From NCBI GenBank assembly GCA_035650475.1, contig DASRHP010000012.1, positions 546,059 through 610,058 on the forward strand: a stretch of 64,000 nucleotides of DNA. The letters are read 5' to 3'. Shown here one piece after another: positions 36,284 to 38,467 of the stretch. Source of the DNA: Candidatus Binataceae bacterium. Lineage in GTDB: Bacteria > Desulfobacterota > Binatia > Binatales > Binataceae. A program made the translations under genes and the position numbers. The notes under the pieces were generated by a model. It was not told the DNA's origin, made no database searches, and was given only the letters and a program-made list of their open reading frames with translations. Each line of letters starts with the position of its first letter. The stretch's first letter is position 1.

Positions 36284-36359
36284 GACACGGCGCGCGGCGT
36301 ACGTAAGAGTCGGCGAGCGTCCTACACGCGCAGGCGCGGGCGCACAAGGAGGGAGCGGG

Positions 36360-37952
36360 ATGGCGAATTCGCTGCCGGGCTTTTCGCTTTCCGATCAGCA
36401 TCGCCGCGTTCACATGTTTCCCGTGAAACATCCGGCGTTGCTCTGTTTCGTCAAGGAGGATTGCCCGACCTGCAACCTGACGATGCCGCTGCTCGAAGCG
36501 GTATGGCGCAGCTTTGGCGAAGCGATCGACGTGGCCGCGATTGGCCAGGACGTGCAGGGCAACGCAGCGCTGATCGAACGGCACGGACTCACCCTCCCGA
36601 TGCTCGACGACTCGGCACTCAGGGTTTCGTACGCCTACAACATCGAGATCGTCCCGACAGTAGTGCTGGCCGACGCCACGGGGGCCGAGTTGCTCCGCTT
36701 CGAGGGCTTCGACAAGTTTGACTGGCAGAACTTGTGCGCCCGGCTCGCGCGGATGGCCGGCGGCGGCGCGCCGCGGATTGACTGGGGCGCTTACCCCGCC
36801 GCGCGCCCCGGATGCGGCTCGAAGTCGGTCGAGCCGGCAATCGCCGAGCGGCTCGCGGCCGAGGCGTCAGGCTCGCCGCTGCGCGCGCGCCAGATCGAAC
36901 TCGGCGCGGCGGAGGATCCTTTCGAGTTCATGTTCGAACGCGGGCTGAGCGACGGCTTGCCGGTGATTCCGCCCACTCCCGAGCGCGTGATGCGGATGCT
37001 CGCCGGAACGCGGCGCGATCCGCAGGAAGTGATCGCGACCGTGCCGCCGAACATGGCGCCGCTTACGATCGAAAAGGTCGCGGCCAACGCCGTGATGGCC
37101 GGGTGCAGGCCGGAGTACCTGCCGGTAGTGACCGCAGTGCTCGAAGCGGTATGCACCGACGAGTTCAACATCCACGGCGTGATGGCGACGACGGCGGGCG
37201 CGACACCGATAATCGTGGTCAACGGCCCGATCCGTCATCGCCTGGGGATGAACATGAAGATCGGCGTGCTCGGGTCGGGCAATCGCGCCAACGCGACGAT
37301 CGGACGCGCGGTCAAGCTTGCGCTGCGCAACGTCGGCGGCGCGCGCCCGGGCGAGATCGAGCGCACCGCGCTCGGCGGCCCGGCCAAGTACACAGCGTGC
37401 TTCCCCGAGTGGGAGGAGCGCAGCCCGTGGGAACCGCTGCACGTTGAGCGCGGCTTTCAGCGCGAGGACGACGTGGTCACTGTCTTCGGCCTTGAGCCGG
37501 GCCCGCGCCTGATCGTCGATCAGCTCTCGCGCACGGGGCGCGCGCTCGCCGGCAGCCTCGGGATGGCGCTGGAGGCCTGTTGGCATCCGAAGCTCCACAA
37601 CTACGGCGAGGTGCTGCTGGTGATCTCGCCCGAGCACGCCGACACTTTCGCGCGCGACGGCTGGACCAAGGCGCGGGTGCGCGAGCGAATCCAGGACGCC
37701 AGCGCGCGTCCGATCCGCGAGCTGCTGCCGGACGACGAGGCGGGCGAGGGGATGGCGCTGCGCCAGCTTGGGCTCAGCAATCCGAGCGCGGCGCAGCTCG
37801 CCCAGCGTATCCCGAAGTTCCGCAAGCCCGAGAATATCAATATCGTGGTTGCCGGCGGCGAGGCCGGAAAGTTCTCCAGCGTGTTCGGCGGATGGTTCAG
37901 CGGGCCGATGGGCTCGCTGAGCGTGAGCCGCAAAATCGAGGAGGTGGCATGA
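36360..37952 (+). CDS. Thioredoxin-like domain fused to a large uncharacterised domain
   Basis: A 530-residue protein. Residues 1-~135 are a thioredoxin/TlpA-like fold with CPTC (Cys35, Cys38) after LLCFVKED and the cis-Pro in IVPT (Pro99). Residues ~150-530 are a conserved globular domain I cannot assign; it starts near PGCGS (Cys152) and includes SDGLPVIPPTPERV, VPPNMAPLTIEKVAANAVMAG, NGPIRHRLGMNMKIGVLGSG and GMALEACWHPKLHNYG. There is no signal peptide. AAGGAGGG fixes the start at 36360. Its stop overlaps the selenoprotein start as ATGA, so the two are translated together and probably act as a redox pair. Confidence 0.82.
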   Translation: MANSLPGFSLSDQHRRVHMFPVKHPALLCFVKEDCPTCNLTMPLLEAVWRSFGEAIDVAAIGQDVQGNAALIERHGLTLPMLDDSALRVSYAYNIEIVPTVVLADATGAELLRFEGFDKFDWQNLCARLARMAGGGAPRIDWGAYPAARPGCGSKSVEPAIAERLAAEASGSPLRARQIELGAAEDPFEFMFERGLSDGLPVIPPTPERVMRMLAGTRRDPQEVIATVPPNMAPLTIEKVAANAVMAGCRPEYLPVVTAVLEAVCTDEFNIHGVMATTAGATPIIVVNGPIRHRLGMNMKIGVLGSGNRANATIGRAVKLALRNVGGARPGEIERTALGGPAKYTACFPEWEERSPWEPLHVERGFQREDDVVTVFGLEPGPRLIVDQLSRTGRALAGSLGMALEACWHPKLHNYGEVLLVISPEHADTFARDGWTKARVRERIQDASARPIRELLPDDEAGEGMALRQLGLSNPSAAQLAQRIPKFRKPENINIVVAGGEAGKFSSVFGGWFSGPMGSLSVSRKIEEVA

Positions 37953-38467
37953 TGCGAATCGTTGACCCCACCGACGAGCGCGAGCCGCTTAGGCGCGCGC
38001 TCGCGGCGCGCCCGGGCCGTCTCAGCGGCACGGTCGCCCTGCTCGACATCGCCAAGCCGCGCGGCGACGTCCTGCTCAGCCGCATCGAGCAGCGGCTGAG
38101 CGCGCGCCTGCCGGGCGTGACGCTCAGGCGCTACCGCAAACCGACCTTCGCCAAGCCGGCGCCCGACGAGCTCCTGCGCAAAATCGCCGGGGAGAGCGAC
38201 TTCGTGATCGAGGCGCTCGCCGATTGAGGGTCGTGCACGACGTGCAGTGTGCACGACTCCGTATGGTTTGAAGTAAACGGCAAGCCCGCGGTGATGGTGG
38301 CGTCGTCCACCTTTGTGGATGCGGCCGAGGCGCAGGCGCGCGCGCTCGGACTGCCCGAGGTGCGCCGCGTCTTCGTGCCCCATCCCATCCAGGACGCGAC
38401 CGATGACGAGATGCGCGCGAAGGCCGACGCGATCATCGATAGGCTGGTCGACGCGCTCAGCAACTAG
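37949..38467 (+). CDS. UGSC-family selenoprotein (in-frame UGA = Sec93)
   Basis: A 172-residue protein if the UGA at 38225-38227 is read as selenocysteine. The frame is open from the ATG at 37949, through UGA, to the stop at 38467, with no shift. The join reads ALAD-U-GSCTTCSVHDSVWFE. U-G-S-C is the diagnostic motif of the UGSC (seleno)protein family, whose Cys homologues read CGSC. Here Sec93 is followed by Cys96 and a further Cys99, making overlapping UxxC and CxxC pairs. The second half (GKPAVMVASSTF, VFVPHPI) also matches the family. An 11-bp hairpin starts right after the UGA. Translated as two pieces it would lose the active site, so splitting it is an annotation trap. A nonsense-mutated Cys gene is the alternative. 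SelA/B/C/D genes are not in this window. Confidence 0.85.
38228..38259 (+). promoter_or_regulatory. Bacterial SECIS-like hairpin after the UGA codon
   Basis: 38228-38238 pairs with 38249-38259 in an 11-bp stem containing one G-U pair, beginning on the base after the UGA. The 10-base loop (38239-38248, GACGTGCAGT) can add two inner pairs, leaving a GUGCA apical loop with a bulged G. Bacterial SECIS elements lie in the coding region just downstream of UGA and usually have GU in a small apical loop, which fits. The UGA-to-loop spacing (14 bases) is at or slightly below the published range. Confidence 0.6.

Follow-up and report, generated by a model that had tools for sequence, protein, structure and literature searches.

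A UGSC-family selenoprotein with a near-obligate partner domain and distant kinship to the selenocysteine subunits of glycine and D-proline reductases

Overview

The 64,000-nucleotide stretch of Candidatus Binataceae genomic DNA analysed here (hereinafter the window) almost certainly encodes, on its forward strand at 37949..38467, a 172-residue selenoprotein of the UGSC family with selenocysteine (Sec) at residue 93. As the family was already described in 2008 (PMC2398784), the gene is a new member of a known family and a further selenoprotein that standard annotation splits in two. By sequence comparison, its Sec domain is distantly homologous to GrdB and PrdB, which are the Sec-containing subunits of glycine reductase and D-proline reductase, and the gene upstream contributes a near-obligate partner, a conserved domain that we call D. 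This kinship, together with the near-constant partner and a linkage to thioredoxin, yields a concrete hypothesis that is testable with two or three proteins.

A UGSC-family gene interrupted by an in-frame UGA

A ribosome-binding-site-like GGAGG, read directly from the sequence at 37940..37944 of the forward strand, precedes an ATG at 37949 and a second in-frame ATG at 37952. As the initial annotation had stated, the frame that reaches TGA at codon 93 (38225..38227) continues unchanged to a TAG at 38465..38467. With TGA taken as Sec, the 172-residue product reads ...EALADUGSCTTCSVHDSVWFE... and displays the exact UGSC motif claimed for it, within UGSCTTC. The further claim that both halves belong to one family is borne out by separate Pfam matches: residues 1–92 alone correspond to positions 1–92 of PF24696 (E 1.4e-17) and the part downstream of the UGA to positions 95–171 (E 2.1e-22), indicating that these are consecutive parts of a single family. 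Searched as a joined protein, as had been suggested, the product matches PF24696 across the UGA with E 8.5e-50 and 169.7 bits (Pfam cut-off 25) and NCBIfam NF041046 with 161.6 bits (cut-off 125). Third-position GC is 0.92 in the first half and 0.86 in the second, against a gene average of 0.87, so that the second half looks as coding-like as the first. The U-x2-C-x2-C arrangement that had been ascribed to an extra cysteine is present as Sec93, Cys96 and Cys99; Cys96 is near-invariant across the family, while Cys99 is shared by 95 of 129 relatives. In comparison with the UGSC family as defined by PF24696 and NF041046 (Zhang and Gladyshev 2008, PMC2398784), the likeness comprises a full-length match across the Sec codon and the UGSC motif itself, and the close members nearly all have UGA as does the window gene. 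Nothing essential differs, the window copy being a separate gene that overlaps the one encoding thioredoxin and D.

The reading of this UGA as a true stop, left by a recent pseudogenization or by a sequencing error in a Cys codon, is extremely improbable. Cys forms of the family do occur, and automatic callers do end the gene here: just as had been foreseen, for the UGA-containing homologue in Acidovorax sp. T1, the annotation gives just a 291-nt hypothetical protein corresponding to the first half. However, the same UGA occupies this codon in 80/80 of the nearest relatives from named genomes, spanning many assemblies, which excludes chance; these relatives share both the codon and an intact downstream part, as opposed to a different codon followed by a degenerate one. 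The RNA constraint and the Sec machinery described below also argue against a stop.

A constrained SECIS-type hairpin downstream of the UGA

A SECIS-type hairpin directly follows the UGA at 38228..38260 of the forward strand, with a minimum free energy in the window of -20.6 kcal/mol and a z of -3.1 relative to synonymous shuffles. It contains a conserved apical stem-loop at 38241..38255 (+), namely C-G-U-G-C / A-G-U-G-U / G-C-A-C-G, with GU at positions 23–24 as counted from the U of UGA. Across 129 relatives, the mean z against synonymous shuffles is -1.19, as compared to -0.16 elsewhere in the same genes, and the bases 3′ of the UGA are constrained beyond the needs of the protein, with synonymous choice preserving the hairpin. 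Thus, AGT encodes the serine at codon +7 in 105/105 cases (as compared to 7% of the serine codons in the same genes), the threonine at +5 is ACG in 85/87 (background 34%), and the cysteine at +6 is TGC in 95/95 (background 67%). The constrained positions make up a hairpin located 14 to 28 bases downstream of the UGA, the loop of which has the form AGUNU.

Among 94 distinct sequences, the innermost pair (positions 18 and 24) switches from C-G (71) to G-C (17) and is paired in 88, versus 59 expected by shuffling, a difference whose significance the shuffles overstate somewhat because the sequences are related. The switch partly tracks a Cys-to-Trp change in the protein, and the opposite base changes along with it. 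This combination of synonymous and compensatory constraint is a second argument against a true stop. The apical GU, present at positions 23–24 in 109 of the 129 relatives, falls on the apical sites that are important in Escherichia coli fdhF (PMC8659212). The fdhF element likewise places its hairpin directly after the UGA with GU at 23–24 in the apical loop; it differs in having a bulged U17, where a C is found here, and in a slightly different stem geometry. Scanning 2.5 kb of sequence surrounding the gene against Rfam returned no match.

Selenocysteine machinery of the genome

The initial annotation had pointed to Sec machinery in the genome as a check of its reading, and we recovered the complete set: a tRNA-Sec with anticodon UCA, SelA, SelB and SelD. 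The SelD gene (contig 10, 249266-250192; locus L018) has one in-frame TGA and is probably itself a selenoprotein gene. The genome also has two other genes of the Sec type, namely a second UGSC gene on contig 14 and one for a short GrdB/PrdB-like protein with the motif VPAUPVC. A changed genetic code with UGA as Trp throughout was considered and ruled out, as TGA serves as the ordinary stop in 7 of the 10 neighbouring genes; hence, the recoding is local and context-bound. Ribosomes would then read the UGA at 38225..38227 as Sec by means of the tRNA-Sec, SelA, SelB, SelD and the downstream hairpin.

Of the 37 genomes in the phylum with a UGA-type UGSC gene, 36 have a clear SelA and one (G198) only a weak match. 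This co-occurrence says little, since 355 of the 395 phylum genomes carry SelA anyway. More telling is a genome (G092) in which the sole UGSC gene is a Cys form and SelA has no match.

The upstream gene and the D domain

The stop codon of the upstream gene, which likely spans 36357..37952 on the forward strand, overlaps the UGSC start as ATGA; the start of the listed open reading frame (36117) lies upstream of the likely ATG. The gene codes for a thioredoxin/AhpC-like domain (36369..36680, +; PF00578, E 1.6e-6) with a CPTC motif at 36462-36473, followed by the D domain of about 345 residues (36885..37916, +), which has no match in Pfam or NCBIfam. D adjoins UGSC in nearly all loci and in 6/6 of the plasmid relatives examined from Actinomycetota, Pseudomonadota and haloarchaea, and the two occur in one chain in 33 natural fusion proteins. 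We therefore regard the D gene as a near-obligate partner of UGSC. A conserved domain fused to UGSC was earlier depicted as "Unknown_1" (PMC2398784, Figure S1A), and may be the same as D. A predicted structure of a UGSC–D fusion has a pLDDT of 93.6, and the fold-search matches listed for it cover the UGSC part.

One of the fusions is the second UGSC gene of this genome (contig 14, locus L155, 5608-8536), which has its own UGA and is followed by a stand-alone D gene, an IlvD/EDD dehydratase and a CoA-transferase, with an amidohydrolase upstream.

Genomic neighborhoods of the relatives

Close linkage of selA and selB to a thioredoxin–D–UGSC arrangement is seen in 17 loci, as though the cassette moved together with its required machinery. 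The Cys-type relatives retain the link to thioredoxin systems: the order is trxB–trxA–D–UGSC in Arthrobacter and D–UGSC–trxB in Roseovarius, and trxB is nearby in Variovorax. The other neighbors are catabolic, namely TauD-type dioxygenases, acyl-CoA dehydrogenases, CoA-transferases, amidohydrolases, and TRAP and MFS transporters.

These contexts bear on the proposal that the enzyme detoxifies a toxic element or electrophile, such as a heavy metal, an arsenical or a halogenated compound, in place of a catabolic role. Sec is a strong nucleophile, and glycine-reductase genes are discussed in a study of monofluoroacetate dehalorespiration in Synergistota (PMC10838667). Nevertheless, we saw no metal- or arsenic-resistance genes near the examined loci, and we deem this role improbable.

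One UGSC operon (L123), in a record titled as a Klebsiella pneumoniae metagenome-assembled genome (MAG), resembles those of marine Gammaproteobacteria MAGs, and the label is probably wrong.

Relationship to GrdB and PrdB and the predicted fold

Iterated HMM searches initiated with GrdB pull in the UGSC family, Sec being aligned on Sec; because iteration can drift, this result was checked in two other ways. First, hhalign comparisons of UGSC give a probability of 96.2% (E 2e-9) with full-length GrdB and 93.5%, again Sec on Sec, with the short GrdB/PrdB-like proteins, as compared to 0.1 to 2.4% for control pairs of unrelated families. Second, the signature U-x2-C-x11-E-x2-G-x-P is present in 122/140 UGSC proteins, 5/15 GrdB and 10/19 of the short GrdB-like proteins, and has a single occurrence among 2.1 million other translated residues. 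An HMM from full-length GrdB alone reaches UGSC weakly (E around 1e-3), and the window protein has no Pfam match to PF07355 (GrdB/PrdB), the homology being detected only in profile–profile comparison.

UGSC and the GrdB/PrdB proteins (PF07355, TIGR04483) thus have in common a Sec domain with this signature and a downstream HP motif, and both UGSC and glycine reductase are linked to thioredoxin. They differ in that the N-terminal two thirds of GrdB are missing from UGSC, and in the partner: GrdB and PrdB are paired with pyruvoyl subunits, GrdE (the proposed substrate subunit) and PrdA, whereas D is unlike GrdE (PF09338). In hhalign, D displayed no similarity to the GrdE, GrdB or short GrdB-like families (0.1% to GrdE), which suggests that the substrate half may work differently. 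Among open-licence papers, we found no statement linking UGSC to GrdB/PrdB, nor one of the D partnership beyond the Unknown_1 fusion (PMC2398784), and we present both as leads. In two loci (L101 and L103), a short GrdB/PrdB-like selenoprotein is encoded close to UGSC and sel genes.

The predicted structure of UGSC (pLDDT 94.6) is a five-stranded β-α repeat of the flavodoxin/Rossmann type, with flavodoxins, flavin reductases and lumazine synthases as its best fold matches; no thioredoxin is among the matches listed, although absence from such a list does not exclude one. Sequence searches of the PDB with the protein, the UGSC profile and the UGSC–D profile returned nothing meaningful. The model thus points to a flavodoxin-like fold and does not support the thioredoxin-like fold that was supposed likely for the family (PMC2398784).

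That supposition, the UxxC motif and the thioredoxin neighbors would all suit a different reading, in which UGSC is a genuine selenoprotein acting as a general thiol or peroxide oxidoreductase in redox protection, and a thioredoxin-linked Sec protein could indeed simply reduce disulfides or peroxides. Against this stand the confident model, which like its listed matches is of the flavodoxin/Rossmann type, the signature in common with GrdB/PrdB, and the tie to a large conserved D domain in catabolic gene clusters. Hence, we consider a general oxidoreductase unlikely, albeit a stronger contender than a detoxification enzyme.

Proposed enzyme and mechanism

In glycine reductase, attack of Sec on carbon is coupled to the oxidation of thioredoxin (PMC10298544). 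This chemistry, combined with the thioredoxin-linked and catabolic context of UGSC, makes a thioredoxin-driven Sec reductase the best-supported reading. From the observed homology and partnership we infer the reaction type and the roles of Cys96/Cys99, D and thioredoxin, proposing a GrdB-like, two-part reductase of an organic substrate, a scheme that as a whole we rate at even chances. UGSC would be the Sec-bearing subunit, and the other part of the enzyme, likely the one that binds the substrate, would be the D domain encoded upstream. By analogy with glycine reductase, the Sec93 selenolate would attack a carbon of the substrate held by D, the resulting C–Se intermediate would be resolved by Cys96 (or Cys99) to yield a selenenylsulfide, and this might in turn be re-reduced by the thioredoxin domain fused to D through its CPTC motif or, in relatives, by separate TrxA/TrxB. 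A further point against a GrdB-like mechanism is that most of the UGSC relatives found here come from bacteria that are not known as Stickland fermenters.

More tentatively, at somewhat short of even confidence, UGSC and D might constitute a separate and widespread class of thioredoxin-dependent selenoenzymes, sister to the glycine and proline reductases, that cleaves an organic C–X bond in environmental bacteria, with a Cys form in haloarchaea and with D lacking any annotated relative.

Expansion and divergence of UGSC paralogues

Three genomes of a single family (G033, G208 and G252, of f39) each code for at least 8 UGSC copies, mostly in long frames resembling UGSC–D fusions, an expansion that suggests diversified substrates. 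We also observed paralogues with neither Sec nor Cys at the active position (L043 802-1314, L162 864-1373 and L168 2579-4141), which instead display motifs such as SADGDRC and YGGSPTG. Some of these adjoin an active copy, and they are possibly non-catalytic subunits.
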